From Zhongshania sp. (GTDB lineage Bacteria; Pseudomonadota; Gammaproteobacteria; Pseudomonadales; Spongiibacteraceae), in the NCBI GenBank assembly GCA_018066965.1, contig JAGPVP010000083.1:1-64000 (forward strand): DNA of 64,000 nucleotides, read 5' to 3'. The position numbers and the translations under genes were made by a program. Below, piece after piece: positions 8,361-16,318 of this stretch (its first letter is position 1; the number at the start of each line of letters is the position of its first letter). The notes under the pieces were generated by a model, which saw only the letters and a list, made by a program, of their open reading frames with translations, was not told the DNA's origin and searched no databases.

Positions 8361-9014
8361 ATGAGCGAATCGCGGGGCGCACTAGGCAAGCTCGATGTAT
8401 TAGCATCGAGCTTGCTCCTGCTAGTATTAATTACACACCCAGCACTAAGCCATGCCAACGCCGAGCCTAACACTGCATCGGCGACATTGACCGCTGAGCA
8501 ACAAGAGCGCGAAGAACTACGTATTTTTCTGAAGCAAGCCATCGCCGAAGCGGGCAGCTTTAAAGACCGCTTCGACGCTGAGGTTTGGCTATTCGACATG
8601 TCCAGCCGTATGACAAGATACGTCGGTGATCCGCAAGAGCGACTAACTTTTTTGCGCAGTGTTCATCGCGAGGCGAGTGCCGCGGGACTTAGCCCAGAGC
8701 TAGTATTGGCGCTGATTGAAGTAGAAAGTTATTTTGACCGCTTTGCGGTATCTCGCGTTGGTGCACAAGGCTTAATGCAAGTGATGCCGTTCTGGAAAAA
8801 AGAAATCGGCCGTCCCGACGACAACCTAACTAATGCCGACACGAATTTACGTTACGGCTGTCAGATTTTGCAGTTTTATTTACAGAAAGAAAAAGGCAAT
8901 CTTCACCGCGCTCTGGCTCGTTACAATGGCAGCCTAGGTAAAAGCTGGTATCCAGAGCGGGTGTTTGATCGATGGCGACGCCATTGGTATAACGGCGAAT
9001 TAGCAAACTACTAG
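8361..9014 (+). CDS. Lytic transglycosylase (SLT domain), secreted
   Basis: Signal-like N-terminus; LSPELVLALIEVESYFDRFAVSRVGAQGLMQVMPFW ... LRYGCQILQFYLQ; starts immediately after the proS stop. Confidence 0.9.
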   Translation: MSESRGALGKLDVLASSLLLLVLITHPALSHANAEPNTASATLTAEQQEREELRIFLKQAIAEAGSFKDRFDAEVWLFDMSSRMTRYVGDPQERLTFLRSVHREASAAGLSPELVLALIEVESYFDRFAVSRVGAQGLMQVMPFWKKEIGRPDDNLTNADTNLRYGCQILQFYLQKEKGNLHRALARYNGSLGKSWYPERVFDRWRRHWYNGELANY

Positions 9015-9493
9015 CGTGGTGGTCTCTCGCCATTACGGTCAGGGGAGTCAGGTCTTGGTGGTTTGTTTTGCATCCGCCCCAATTCCCGCAGCGCAAATTT
9101 CAATCGTTGCTCTGGCGGTAATGTCGCTAACACCGTCGCCAATACTTCATGGCTCACCTGCTTTAAATTATTATCAGCAATACGAATTGCTTTAAAGCCG
9201 CCACTAATATCAGCTTCTGTTGCTTGATCCTGCTTTAGAATACCGACCATATCCCGCTTGGCAGAGCGTAGTTTTCGATACGCCTTTGCCATATCTTTGC
9301 GATGCATTTCCAGCACCTGACGCATGGGTTCCGCTAGTTCGTTCGGCTCATCTTTTAGCAGTTGCTTTGCCATACCATGCATGGCGTGGCGCTCTTCACC
9401 CATCAAACGGTGGCCAACATATAGGCCAACCAATATGCCGTTTAGCACTAGCGAAACAAACAACGCAATAACAAGGCCTTTACGTGCATTCAT
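9011..9493 (-). CDS. Periplasmic heavy-metal-sensor / CnrX-Spy-like protein, membrane anchored
   Basis: N-terminal TM MNARKGLVIALFVSLVLNGILVGLYVGHRL then Met/His-containing helices; RQVLEMHRKDMAKAYRKLRSAKRDMVGIL; LPPEQRLKFALREL (Spy-like). ATGA overlap with upstream gene. Confidence 0.7.
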   Translation of the reverse strand: MNARKGLVIALFVSLVLNGILVGLYVGHRLMGEERHAMHGMAKQLLKDEPNELAEPMRQVLEMHRKDMAKAYRKLRSAKRDMVGILKQDQATEADISGGFKAIRIADNNLKQVSHEVLATVLATLPPEQRLKFALRELGRMQNKPPRPDSPDRNGERPPR

Positions 9494-9924
9494 AAATCCG
9501 TACCTGCAATCCAATTACTCACTTCGTAACTCGCTGTTGCATCAAAAGTATAAGTATCTGGGTCCGTATAATCAGCAAAATAGCCTCCAGCGCCGAGCAC
9601 AACACCCAGTAGCGCCGAGGCCATAGCTGCTGCAAAACTCATACGCCACATGGGCATGAAAGATTCTCGAACCGGCTGCCGACGCGGACGAGCAATGGCA
9701 GCTAAACGCGCTTGCAAGGCCACACTTGGCTCCAAATCCTGCACATCACTTTTATACAATGCTCGTAAACTTCGCTCTTCATCCTGTGCCTTGTGCCAAC
9801 GTAAAGAGCAGGAATCTAGACATAAAAAAGCCGGCAATAGCAGGCGCAACAAGAAGGGCCAACGTGCGGCATCAGCACCGTGCCGCGCTAATAGCGCGGC
9901 GAATATCCGTACTGCCAATGTCAT
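9490..9924 (-). CDS. Single-TM putative anti-sigma factor (CnrY-like position)
   Basis: About 90-aa cytoplasmic N-terminus, one TM (FAAAMASALLGVVLGAGGYF), short tail; ATGA overlap with the ECF sigma gene; function inferred from context. Confidence 0.5.
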   Translation of the reverse strand: MTLAVRIFAALLARHGADAARWPFLLRLLLPAFLCLDSCSLRWHKAQDEERSLRALYKSDVQDLEPSVALQARLAAIARPRRQPVRESFMPMWRMSFAAAMASALLGVVLGAGGYFADYTDPDTYTFDATASYEVSNWIAGTDL

Positions 9925-10457
9925 TCCCGACCTCCTAATCGCGTTCGGAGCTGCTGCTTCGCTCGGCTTATTAATGATTCCACTGCTTTAGCCGACAAGC
10001 CCATAATCACCGCAATATCTTTCACTGAAACATCTTGATAGAAACGAAATGCCATCACTGTTCGCTGATTGTCCGGAAGCGACTGCAATGCGTCGAATAC
10101 CTCGGCATTGTCGTCATCGCCTACGGATTCTTCTGGTGCAGCACTATCAACAATAAATTCAACCAAACCATCATCTAACACATGGCGCTGCTGAACTCGT
10201 TGGTGGTAATTAAGCGCCAAATTGCTCGCTACGCGATAAAGCCAGGTTGTTAATTTGGCATCGTCTCGCCACGCTGGCGCCTGCGTCCAAAGTCGTTCAA
10301 ACACTTCTTGGCAAAGGTCTTCTGCGTCATCTCGCGAAAGTACAATACGATATGCAAGATTCAATACCATTTTACTGTGGCGATCCAACAGCGTTGAAAA
10401 CGCATGTTGGTCGCCGTCCGCTACTCGCCGCATCAATTCGATATCAGATAACTGCAC
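9921..10457 (-). CDS. ECF (RpoE-like) RNA polymerase sigma factor
   Basis: Region 2 AEDLCQEVFERLWTQAPAWRDDAKLTTWLYRVASNLALNYHQR; region 4 QSLPDNQRTVMAFRFYQDVSVKDIAVIMGLSAKAVESLISRAKQQLR. Confidence 0.95.
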   Translation of the reverse strand: MQLSDIELMRRVADGDQHAFSTLLDRHSKMVLNLAYRIVLSRDDAEDLCQEVFERLWTQAPAWRDDAKLTTWLYRVASNLALNYHQRVQQRHVLDDGLVEFIVDSAAPEESVGDDDNAEVFDALQSLPDNQRTVMAFRFYQDVSVKDIAVIMGLSAKAVESLISRAKQQLRTRLGGRE

Positions 10458-10493
10458 GCTGAATCCTAAGAGTTGGCGAAAGCGGAGTGCTAA

Positions 10494-10946
10494 TTACGCG
10501 CCGTCACGATCTTTACGGTGCTCGCCATCATGACGGTCACCACCGTGATCACGCATTGCCTTAAACATTTCACGACGATCGATTATACCGTCACCATTGC
10601 GATCCATTCGCTTTGCCATGCCATCCGAACTCGCGGCAAATTCCTCAGCAGAAATCTGACCGTCTTCATTGGCATCGGCACGATCAAAACGATCTTTCTT
10701 ATTTGCCTCGCGCTCTGCCTTCATCTTTGCCTTGTATTCGGTCATTTCTTCGCGGGTTAAATTACCGTCGCTATTTAAATCCATTTTTGCAAACATGGCC
10801 TGACGGTGCTGAGACAACTCTTCGGTACTTACCGAACCGTCGCCGTTCAGATCGAAATTAGGACGTTGCTTTCCCTCTTCGCCAGCGATAGCCGACATTG
10901 CAGCCAAAGAAACGATAACGCTTAATACTTTTTGTGCTGTATTCAT
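10494..10946 (-). CDS. Secreted EF-hand calcium-binding protein (four EF-hand loops)
   Basis: Signal peptide MNTAQKVLSVIVSLAAMSAIAG; loops DLNGDGSVSTEE, DLNSDGNLTREE, DANEDGQISAEE, DRNGDGIIDRRE. Confidence 0.9.
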   Translation of the reverse strand: MNTAQKVLSVIVSLAAMSAIAGEEGKQRPNFDLNGDGSVSTEELSQHRQAMFAKMDLNSDGNLTREEMTEYKAKMKAEREANKKDRFDRADANEDGQISAEEFAASSDGMAKRMDRNGDGIIDRREMFKAMRDHGGDRHDGEHRKDRDGA

Positions 10947-11076
10947 GATGGGTACTCCCAAGAATCATAGTTCAGAATTTTGCTTCATTGTTACGGCCGT
11001 TAATGATTAAACACGGCGAACAAAAAAATCCTTCGCAGGGAGTTAAAAATAATTTTTAGCCATAAGTACTTTGCTA

Positions 11077-12612: not shown

Positions 12613-12874
12613 GCGTTCTTATTCCTGTTATTCACCAAACATCTAGCCTTTCGCTATGAAACTTACTTATTGTGTTGTAGCGTGAGCTTACATAAGAATA
12701 ATACTAAGCAATTGACCGAAAATTATCGCTGCCAAAAAATCCGGCAATAGCCAATAAAAATATTAAGACATAAACTAATTCGTATCCAATTGCATAGCTT
12801 ACGCCTCAGCGAATTAAAAAAACACAACAACGCTAAATATATCAGATAGTTGCAAATACAGGGTGTGGAAACAA

Positions 12875-14284
12875 ATGGCAAAACTTTCAGTAATGGATTT
12901 AGCTTTTTTTCTAACCGAAACCGACGCGAGCCCCAAGCATGTTGGCGGCTTGCTCATGTTTCGCAAGCCAGCAAAGGCGCCCGCCAACTATGTTGAGCAA
13001 CTAGTTGACGAATACGCGGGCAATATCGATGAAATTCGCGCCCCCTTTAATCAAATAATTCAGTTCTCAGCCTTTAGTGCACCGCGCTGGAAATGCGACT
13101 TAGATTTCGACATCAATAACCATGTCTTTTTTCACACTATAAGCGGCGACGACTTTCGTGAGAGACTTTACGATTTAATCGGCAGTTTACATAGTGTTCG
13201 TATGGACCGCGCCCGTCCTATGTGGGAAATGCATGTTATTCAAGGTATTGATGACGAGCGCTTTGCGATCTACACCAAGCTGCACCACGCCTATGCCGAC
13301 GGCGTCACCATGTCGTCATGGCTGGTAAATAGTTTAAGTAAATCTGCACGAACTAAAGCGGTTACACCAATCTGGTCTGTACTACCCCAGAAGCGCCTGC
13401 AAAATACAGCAGATAGCATTTCCATCATGAAAGTACTAACTCAGCTCGGCGGGCGTTCTGGCGACTATATAAAAGCGGTCACCGGCCTCACCAAGCTCAG
13501 CGCACAATTGGCTTTAGAGACATTAAACCTTACCAAAAACGCAGTTGCAGTGCCGTTTAAAGCCAATAGCTCAACGCCATTAACTGGGCAAGTCAGCGCT
13601 GGCCGGCAAATTGCCACCGCCGCAGTTGATATGGAGCGCGTGCATCGCCTGCGCAAACTCACTCGGTCTACCCTCAACCACATTGCCTTAACGTGTATTG
13701 ATGGCGCACTGCATCGCTACCTACAGGACTGCGGAACCGACATTAACGAACCCATCACTATCCAGATGCCGGTAAATTTGCGCCAGAGCGGCGATGATAG
13801 CTTCGGCAATAAAATCGGCATTGTCTTGGTCGAGTTGGCCAATAAAACCACCGACCCCTATGAACGGCTACGTGAAATCGGCTTTACACTCCGCAACGTA
13901 CGCTACCAAATCGATGGCGTGCCGCCCGCATCAGTAATGGCTTACACGGTATTACTTGGGGGAGTATCGCTGATTGCCGAAGCACTGAAACTTGGCGATG
14001 TACTGCCGCCACTAGGCAATACCTTGGTCTCAAATGTACCCGGTCCTGCTAAGGCGCTTTATTTGAAAGGGGCAAAATTAGAAGAAATGTACCCCATTAG
14101 CGCCTTAACACCGAGCAACCATCTCAATATTACGCTATACAGTTATGACGGCCGTTTACAATTTGGCTTGGTAGCCACCACCGCCATGCCAAACCTCGAG
14201 ATTCTCGGCAACTATATACACGATGCCTTTGACGACCTCGAAGAGGCCGTCTCGCCATCTGTGCTTGCAAAATCTAAAAAATAA
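12875..14284 (+). CDS. Wax ester synthase / diacylglycerol acyltransferase (WS/DGAT)
   Basis: MAKLSVMDLAFFLTETDASPKHVGGLLMF; catalytic HHxxxDG (KLHHAYADGVTMS); C-terminal PLGNTLVSNVPGPAKALYL. ORF track extends to a GTG at 12863. Confidence 0.93.
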   Translation: MAKLSVMDLAFFLTETDASPKHVGGLLMFRKPAKAPANYVEQLVDEYAGNIDEIRAPFNQIIQFSAFSAPRWKCDLDFDINNHVFFHTISGDDFRERLYDLIGSLHSVRMDRARPMWEMHVIQGIDDERFAIYTKLHHAYADGVTMSSWLVNSLSKSARTKAVTPIWSVLPQKRLQNTADSISIMKVLTQLGGRSGDYIKAVTGLTKLSAQLALETLNLTKNAVAVPFKANSSTPLTGQVSAGRQIATAAVDMERVHRLRKLTRSTLNHIALTCIDGALHRYLQDCGTDINEPITIQMPVNLRQSGDDSFGNKIGIVLVELANKTTDPYERLREIGFTLRNVRYQIDGVPPASVMAYTVLLGGVSLIAEALKLGDVLPPLGNTLVSNVPGPAKALYLKGAKLEEMYPISALTPSNHLNITLYSYDGRLQFGLVATTAMPNLEILGNYIHDAFDDLEEAVSPSVLAKSKK

Positions 14285-14329
14285 CAAAGCCATAGATACA
14301 GAGCATTCAAAGAAACTTGGAGATTTACC

Positions 14330-16318
14330 ATGAGCTATTTTGTCACCGGCGGCACCGGTTTTATTGGCCGCTTCTTAATCGAGCGTCTTGCCAAACGTAA
14401 AGGCACGATCTATGTATTAGTGCGCCGAGGTTCAAAACAAAAATACAAAGACCTTCTTGAGAGAACGGGACTTAGTGCGGACCGCTTAGTCGCCATAAAT
14501 GGCGACCTGTCAAAACCGCGCTTGGGCATTAGCGCTAAAGATATGACCACACTAAAGGGGTCGGTTAAGCACTTTTATCATCTTGCAGCGATTTACGATC
14601 TAAAAGCTGATGCTGCAAGCCAAGAGATTGCCAATGTAGAGGGCACTAAAAATGCCATCGCCGCTGCTGAGGCAATGTCTGCCAAATGCTTCCACCTAGC
14701 AAGCTCAATTGCTGCCGCCGGTTTGTACCGAGGTACATTTAGAGAAGACATGTTCGAAGAGGCCAAAGGCCTTGATCATGCTTACTTCCGCACCAAGCAC
14801 GTGTCAGAAGGACTGGTACGCAACGAGTGCAAAATACCTTACCGCATTTATCGCCCCGCGATGGTGGTGGGCGATTCTAAAACTGGCGAAATCGACAAAA
14901 TCGACGGCCCGTATTATTTCTTTAAATTACTTCAAAAGTTGCGCAACCGTATTCCGCAGTGGGTGCCGCTGATTGGCGTAGAAGGCGGACAAATGAATAT
15001 TGTCCCCGTTGACTACGTTGCTGATGCAATGGATTTCTTATCGCATAAAGCTGGGCTAGACGGCCGCTGTTTCCACTTGGTTAATCCTGAGTCGCAGCAA
15101 GTGGGCGAAGTACTCAATATTTTCTCACAAGCAGCACACGCGCCCCGCTTCGCGCTGCGTATTGATATGCGGATGTTTGCCTTCATCCCCGCTTCTATTC
15201 TTAACCTTTTAAAAGGACTGCCACCGGTTCGCCGAATCATAAACGCCATCTTAGCGGATTATCATATCCCGCAAGACGCCGTTAGCTTTATGAATATGCC
15301 GACTCGCTTTGACACCCGCGATACCCTCAAAGCCCTTAAGGGAAGTGGTATTTCACCACCAGCTTTAGAAGATTACGCGCACAAAATTTGGGATTACTGG
15401 GAGCGTAATCTCGACCCAGACTTATTTAAAGACCGCTCATTGCGCGGCAATGTAAAAGACAAAGTCATTGTGATTACCGGCGCCTCGTCAGGTATCGGTA
15501 AAGCCGCCGCGTTTAAACTTGCCAGTGCCGGCGCCAAGGTCGTTCTCGTTGCCCGATCACTCGAAAAATTAGAAGAAACCCAAAAGGAAATCGCTGACAA
15601 AGGCGGTACCAGCTACGCCTACAGCTGTGACGTGTCTGACTTGGAATCTTGCGATAAATTAGTCGCGACCTTGCTAGAAAATCATGGCAAAGTCGATGTG
15701 CTTGTTAACAATGCCGGACGTTCAATTCGTCGCTCACTTGAGTTAACCTTCGACCGCTTCCACGATTTTGAACGTACCATGCAGCTCAACTACTTTGGCG
15801 CAATTCGTTTAATTATGGGCTTGGCGCCGTCGATGCTAGAACGCAAAGCCGGTCATGTGATCAACATTTCTTCTATTGCCGTTATTGTTGGTACATCGCC
15901 ACGCTTCTCTGCGTACGCGGCTTCAAAATCGGCGTTAGATGCATTTTCACGAGCCGCAGCAGCAGAGTTTTCTGACCGGAACATCGCCTTTACCACCATT
16001 AATATGCCACTAGTTAGAACGCCAATGATTGGGCCAACCTCAATCTACAACTCGGTGCCCACATTGTCGCCAGACGAAGCCGCAGATATGATCTGCGATG
16101 CCATTATTCGCAGACCAAAACGTATTGCGACTGGCCTTGGTATCACCATGCAAGTACTTAACGCCATTATGCCCAAAGCCGTAGAAATCATCATGAACAC
16201 GGTTTTCCGCACCTTCCCAGACTCTTCTGCCGCCAAAGGGGACGGCGAGGAGAACAAAACTGAGGTATCTTCTGAGCAAATGGCGCTAGCTGCTGTACTC
16301 AAAGGTATCCACGTCTAA
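14330..16318 (+). CDS. Two-domain fatty acyl-CoA / aldehyde reductase (FAR; NAD_binding_4 plus SDR)
   Basis: N-terminal YFVTGGTGFIGRFLIERL; C-terminal VIVITGASSGIGKAA and YAASKSALDAF; length and motif order match the recalled Marinobacter fatty acyl reductase Maqu_2507. Confidence 0.88.
   Translation: MSYFVTGGTGFIGRFLIERLAKRKGTIYVLVRRGSKQKYKDLLERTGLSADRLVAINGDLSKPRLGISAKDMTTLKGSVKHFYHLAAIYDLKADAASQEIANVEGTKNAIAAAEAMSAKCFHLASSIAAAGLYRGTFREDMFEEAKGLDHAYFRTKHVSEGLVRNECKIPYRIYRPAMVVGDSKTGEIDKIDGPYYFFKLLQKLRNRIPQWVPLIGVEGGQMNIVPVDYVADAMDFLSHKAGLDGRCFHLVNPESQQVGEVLNIFSQAAHAPRFALRIDMRMFAFIPASILNLLKGLPPVRRIINAILADYHIPQDAVSFMNMPTRFDTRDTLKALKGSGISPPALEDYAHKIWDYWERNLDPDLFKDRSLRGNVKDKVIVITGASSGIGKAAAFKLASAGAKVVLVARSLEKLEETQKEIADKGGTSYAYSCDVSDLESCDKLVATLLENHGKVDVLVNNAGRSIRRSLELTFDRFHDFERTMQLNYFGAIRLIMGLAPSMLERKAGHVINISSIAVIVGTSPRFSAYAASKSALDAFSRAAAAEFSDRNIAFTTINMPLVRTPMIGPTSIYNSVPTLSPDEAADMICDAIIRRPKRIATGLGITMQVLNAIMPKAVEIIMNTVFRTFPDSSAAKGDGEENKTEVSSEQMALAAVLKGIHV

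Follow-up and report, generated by a model that had tools for sequence, protein, structure and literature searches.

A conserved four-gene ECF sigma factor locus in Alpha- and Gammaproteobacteria, homologous to CaBP-SigV, with a predicted link to RND efflux

The stretch of Zhongshania sp. DNA analyzed here (64,000 nucleotides, referred to as the window) contains four tightly packed genes on the minus strand of a Zhongshania-type gammaproteobacterium, which encode, in order, an EF-hand protein, an ECF sigma factor, a protein with one transmembrane (TM) helix, and a membrane-anchored helical sensor. We think it probable that these genes form an ECF switch that responds to a periplasmic signal, is homologous to the CaBP-SigV circuit of Caulobacter, and controls its own operon together with an MdtABC-type RND efflux operon. 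The individual parts were already known; what is new is the family of four genes, together with its promoter and predicted efflux regulon. The locus contains the following features.

11007..11036, minus strand: predicted sigma-dependent promoter, GCGAAGGATT-N12-GTGTTTAA, with 0 mismatches to the genus pattern
10494..10946, minus strand: CaBP-like secreted EF-hand protein, 150 aa, with four Ca2+ loops of canonical type; its place immediately 5' of the sigma gene is conserved
10881..10946, minus strand: signal peptide of the EF-hand protein, residues 1-22, read from the sequence
9921..10457, minus strand: ECF sigma factor, 178 aa, GTG start, Sigma70_r2/r4
9490..9924, minus strand: membrane protein, 144 aa, probable anti-sigma factor with a YG...WP-type motif and one TM helix
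9589..9648, minus strand: TM helix of the probable anti-sigma factor, residues 93-112
9011..9493, minus strand: periplasmic sensor of the Metal_resist family, 160 aa, helical and membrane-anchored, with a CnrX/Spy-like fold
9401..9487, minus strand: N-terminal membrane helix of the sensor, residues 3-31

An earlier, sequence-only reading of this DNA had described four packed genes on one strand with two ATGA overlaps, and all of these are present, the overlaps being exact at 9921-9924 (sigma factor and TM protein) and 9490-9493 (TM protein and sensor). Two details were revised. The EF-hand gene had been started at 10961, which is an upstream TTG; the likelier start is the ATG at 10946, with a ribosome-binding GGGAG ahead of it. 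The sensor had been assigned 161 residues and has 160. A lytic transglycosylase gene (8361-9014, plus strand) runs toward the sensor gene and overlaps its end by 4 bases, and this neighborhood is kept in most, not all, of the genus. Elsewhere in the window, positions 12863-16318 of the plus strand encode an acyltransferase resembling wax ester synthases (473 aa) and, after it, a long fatty-acyl-reductase/SDR-like protein (662 aa), both named from reading the sequence.

For a comparison within the genus, 58 relatives were searched with the sigma factor and the open reading frames around the matches were compared. The EF-hand protein, sigma factor, TM protein, and sensor occur together and in the same order in 18 of 18 genomes of the genus, a set whose named members are Zhongshania, Spongiibacter, and Neomelitea, and the four-gene set is absent where the sigma factor matches in the family's other genera. 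Few relatives (3 of 274 gammaproteobacterial genomes) were recovered with a narrow sensor profile, and the sigma profile proved to be the one that worked. Contigs scanned with the sigma profile showed the same gene order in many Rhodobacteraceae, in uncultured Gammaproteobacteria, and in a Thiotrichaceae; outside the genus, 30 of 70 relatives found by sigma similarity alone among uncultured Gammaproteobacteria and Rhodobacteraceae carry both the EF-hand and the sensor gene. An even sample of Pseudomonadota, not conditioned on the EF-hand gene, yielded 46 sigma factors of the group with scores clearly apart from generic ECFs. The EF-hand gene lies upstream and the sensor gene downstream of 39 of these 46, compared with 0 of 9 generic ECF loci, and in the genus Caulobacter both genes are present at 40 of 42 loci. 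The four-gene order recurs far above chance, and from these homologies the switch appears to be conserved across two large bacterial classes, the Alpha- and Gammaproteobacteria. The EF-hand gene, which had been proposed as part of the module, is thus conserved with it and probably co-regulated; the seven sampled sigma relatives in which it was not detected indicate that the switch can in places do without it.

In the uncultured gammaproteobacterial cassettes, a small conserved gene with the signature KGKYRHFKGN.YE...HHSETQEP.V.YRALYG, presumably DUF1653-like, lies directly 3' of the sensor gene (L046:6600-6839, L047:6612-6872, L050:6596-6841, L056:6486-6821, and L109:6589-6819). Three Bacteroidota loci (L058:850-1808, L068:5792-6421, and L076:5576-6410) have a sigma factor, a TM protein, and a Metal_resist/LTXXQ protein in this order without an EF-hand gene, most clearly in L058 and L076; by their gene content they appear to follow the same three-part logic with other partners.

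The first gene encodes a secreted protein with four EF-hand loops, as had been read originally. Its signal peptide, identified by reading the sequence, has a hydrophobic core followed by SAIA-GEE; a PROSITE-type pattern places the loops at residues 32-43, 56-67, 91-102, and 115-126, and Pfam likewise finds four EF-hands. The loops begin with DLN, DLN, DAN, and DRN. Binding of lanthanides or another hard cation, which would make this a rare-earth switch, is suggested by a weak match to the lanmodulin profile of 41 bits, but the cutoff is 135 bits, position 2 of the loops holds no proline, and the loops are of the canonical Ca2+ type. On these grounds lanmodulin identity was rejected, and we consider a rare-earth switch highly improbable. 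A plasmid EF-hand match in Limimaricola was set aside, as it has no annotated sigma factor adjoining it.

A two-block motif lies upstream of the EF-hand gene and is similar in every clade. The genus version is GCGANGGNTT-N12-GTGTTTAA, in which the -35 block is similar to the GGAAN/13/CGTTCA-type promoter of Caulobacter and the -10 block is GTGTTTAA. The alphaproteobacterial version, GCGACGGAA-N14-CGTTNA, corresponds to the cabp promoter mapped by 5'RACE (PMC13171946), and many uncultured Gammaproteobacteria have CGACGGG...CGTATA. The motif is found ahead of the EF-hand gene in 18 of 18 genomes of the genus, 33 of 39 Caulobacter, 20 of 39 sampled relatives from the phylum, and at least 10 of 17 uncultured Gammaproteobacteria, with 0-1 in the controls. 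With at most one mismatch allowed, the genus pattern has 30 sites in the 18 genomes that carry the sigma factor and 2 in 39 relatives that do not, where sites within the genus are not phylogenetically independent.

Eighteen of the 30 sites precede the cassette, 10 precede genes for RND periplasmic adaptors, and 2 lie elsewhere. The genome from which the window derives has only seven RND adaptor genes, and a second exact site is situated about 104 bases before the adaptor gene of an MdtABC-type operon. The pump of this operon is of the MdtB/MdtC type and falls far below the CusA/CzcA cutoff (396 and 309 compared with 701 bits). In 61 Rhodobacteraceae genomes there are 31 motif sites, against 2 for a reversed-pattern control; 12 precede RND adaptors and 5 the cassette. 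An RND efflux target is therefore seen in two classes, with different adaptor families. Others of the Rhodobacteraceae sites precede TolC-, DedA-, cytochrome-b561-, and DUF1800-like genes, named by eye. Exact sites near position 1501 in the Rhodobacteraceae loci L261, L262, L267, L270, L271, L278, L281, and L282 have DedA-, cytochrome b561-, DUF1800-, ferric-reductase-, and TolC-like genes downstream, and such genes are possible further members of the regulon.

The conserved promoter holds GGAA...CGTT like the promoters of EcfG, and might be read by another sigma factor, either EcfG/SigT of the general stress response or RpoE. However, its GGAA-N14-CGTT spacing is unlike that of EcfG promoters, which is about N17-18, and the motif tracks the sigma factor of the cassette across genomes with and without it. 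Input from SigT has been proposed by the Caulobacter authors, but the activity of the cabp promoter is changed by both overexpression and deletion of SigV (PMC13171946). We regard recognition by another sigma factor as quite unlikely and take the cassette's own sigma factor as the one that would read the motif.

This sigma factor contains Pfam sigma regions 2 and 4, and it shares 54-87% identity with its orthologues in the remaining 17 genomes of the genus. In a sequence search of the PDB it matches AlgU, SigW, and RpoE far better than CnrH (E = 5e-17 for CnrH, compared with 9e-30 for the RNA polymerase sigma-H factor 6in7). The sensor belongs to the Pfam family Metal_resist (PF13801, E = 4e-13). 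By sequence it has weak matches only in the PDB, with NccX and Spy appearing weakly by sequence profile. The AlphaFold model (pLDDT 80) has CnrX, CpxP, NccX, and Spy as its top PDB matches in Foldseek, with probabilities of 0.96-1.00; the E-values are weak, about 0.1 (0.08), because the sensor is a small helical protein. The Spy/CnrX fold that had been proposed for the sensor is thereby borne out.

The choice of CnrX and NccX as the best fold matches raises the question of a true CnrYXH-type sensor of a transition metal (Ni, Co, Cu, or Zn), in which the sigma factor would control metal efflux and the EF-hand protein would be incidental. The Zhongshania sensors have 4-6 histidines and many methionines, and an RND pump is among the predicted targets. 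Outside the genus, however, most sensor homologues contain at most one histidine, and a metal ligand is not kept throughout at any position; a CnrX-type His/Glu/Met site was therefore rejected. The pump is of the multidrug type, and the EF-hand gene is retained in most sampled relatives (39 of 46). A transition-metal sensor of this kind thus seems unlikely, and the sensor, judged from the model and the residue comparison among homologues, appears to have a CnrX-like fold without sharing the metal chemistry of CnrX. Because these ligands are unconserved and the sigma factor resembles CnrH no more than it does other ECFs, the switch may work in a CnrYXH-like manner without being a member of that system.

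In the TM protein, a YG...WP-type motif lies in the cytoplasmic helices, which are followed by a single TM helix and a short acidic periplasmic tail. It belongs to no family in Pfam or NCBIfam and has weak matches only when compared with the PDB by sequence. Using a simple hydropathy rule, a TM open reading frame was found between the sigma and sensor genes in 121 of 138 cassettes; the charge distribution is positive-inside in 119 of these 121 homologues, and 93 contain YG...WP. The zinc anti-sigma (ZAS) motif HxxxCxxC is present in none of the 121, in agreement with the proposal of a non-ZAS anti-sigma factor. The model of the 144-residue protein is of low confidence (pLDDT 71) and gave no meaningful match; neither the sequence nor this modeled fold matches CnrY, a class II anti-sigma factor, or any known anti-sigma domain in the PDB. 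We take the TM protein as a probable anti-sigma factor.

A search of open papers for the four-gene module found only the 2026 report on cabp-sigV (CCNA_02838/CCNA_02837) of Caulobacter vibrioides, in which a periplasmic EF-hand protein and the adjacent ECF sigma factor form a mutual loop (PMC13171946). CaBP is periplasmic and shifts with Ca2+; SigV drives cabp, EGTA and acid induce it, and overexpression of CaBP raises sigV expression (PMC13171946). The two genes were reported as separate transcripts, SigT control of both was also suggested, and the membrane component of the model was left as a question mark by the authors (PMC13171946). We located Caulobacter genomes through CtrA, and three close relatives of C. 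vibrioides stood in for C. vibrioides itself. Several of the published cabp and sigV primers fit these relatives with 0-2 mismatches; Procabp5 fits exactly, and sigV-5 lies where expected and differs at one base. In all three, the EF-hand gene is followed by genes for SigV, a TM protein with YG/FG...WP, and a Metal_resist protein (E = 1.6e-15). Profile A5 finds the Caulobacter loci at E-values of 1e-54 to 1e-63; the sigma factor is homologous to SigV and the locus architecture is the same. The TM protein and the sensor are therefore candidates for the missing membrane link, and by analogy with its close relatives C. vibrioides itself presumably has both genes. This places the CaBP-SigV circuit within a conserved four-gene family with a defined promoter and gives concrete candidates for the component marked "?".

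At rest, the cytoplasmic helices of the TM protein would tether the sigma factor to the inner membrane, while the short periplasmic tail of the TM protein would be controlled by the membrane-anchored CnrX/Spy-fold sensor. Periplasmic stress would alter the sensor so that the anti-sigma factor releases the sigma factor, which may then transcribe from GCGANGG..-type promoters its own operon, with the EF-hand gene first, and the MdtABC-type RND multidrug efflux operon. The EF-hand protein, as a target of the sigma factor, would bind periplasmic Ca2+ and either buffer it or feed back on the sensor. By analogy with Caulobacter, the stress may be Ca2+ limitation, acid, or both, or the ensuing disturbance of the envelope, and these are the most likely inputs.

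A general envelope-stress switch of the Cpx/Bae kind, in which the Spy-like protein detects misfolding or damage in the envelope and the EF-hand protein serves purely as output, is a real contender to which we give somewhat less than even weight. In its favor, Spy and CpxP are among the fold matches of the sensor, some motif sites lie ahead of TolC-, DedA-, and cytochrome-b561-like genes, and in Escherichia coli MdtABC is under BaeSR together with Spy. On the other hand, EGTA and acid induce cabp in Caulobacter, and this induction, together with the rise in sigV expression upon CaBP overexpression, suggests that the EF-hand protein has a role beyond output (PMC13171946). We tentatively propose a widespread calcium-gated switch, in which a CnrX/Spy-fold sensor, a new YG-WP class of one-TM anti-sigma factors, and a sigma-induced EF-hand protein would read periplasmic Ca2+, or the resulting state of the envelope, and activate multidrug efflux of the RND type in Alpha- and Gammaproteobacteria. 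The switch would then link periplasmic Ca2+ or acid stress with multidrug efflux.

Among known systems, the ECF20-type CnrYXH of Cupriavidus metallidurans (Co/Ni resistance) likewise combines an ECF sigma factor, a small one-TM anti-sigma factor, a membrane-anchored periplasmic sensor of the CnrX fold, and an RND output, the anti-sigma factor and output being predictions here. The CnrYXH-like architecture of the sequence-only reading is supported to this extent. The gene order differs, however, and an EF-hand partner is present. Membership of CnrYXH is not supported: there is no conserved His/Met metal site, the sigma factor is nearer to AlgU, SigW, and RpoE, no similarity to CnrY was found, and the predicted target is a multidrug-type pump (MdtA/B/C-like) and not a heavy-metal RND; the promoter, the RND regulon, and the Caulobacter link were absent from that reading. 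BaeSR/CpxP/Spy-MdtABC of E. coli also joins a periplasmic protein of the Spy/CpxP fold and an MdtABC pump in envelope stress responses, but through two-component systems, in contrast to a sigma/anti-sigma pair. SigAb-AabA-AabB of Acinetobacter has an ECF sigma gene with two small genes behind it whose products have anti-sigma activity, and a link to metal stress; it differs in being copper-responsive and in having no reported EF-hand gene (PMC12153292). The closest known system is CaBP-SigV. In both, the EF-hand gene lies directly upstream of the ECF sigma gene on the same strand, the promoter has the same sequence and spacing, and the same TM protein and sensor genes follow in the relatives of C. 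vibrioides. The proteins are distant in sequence and Caulobacter has an internal sigV promoter, and whereas CaBP-SigV was described as a two-gene loop, the Zhongshania-type family adds two conserved genes and predicted RND efflux targets.
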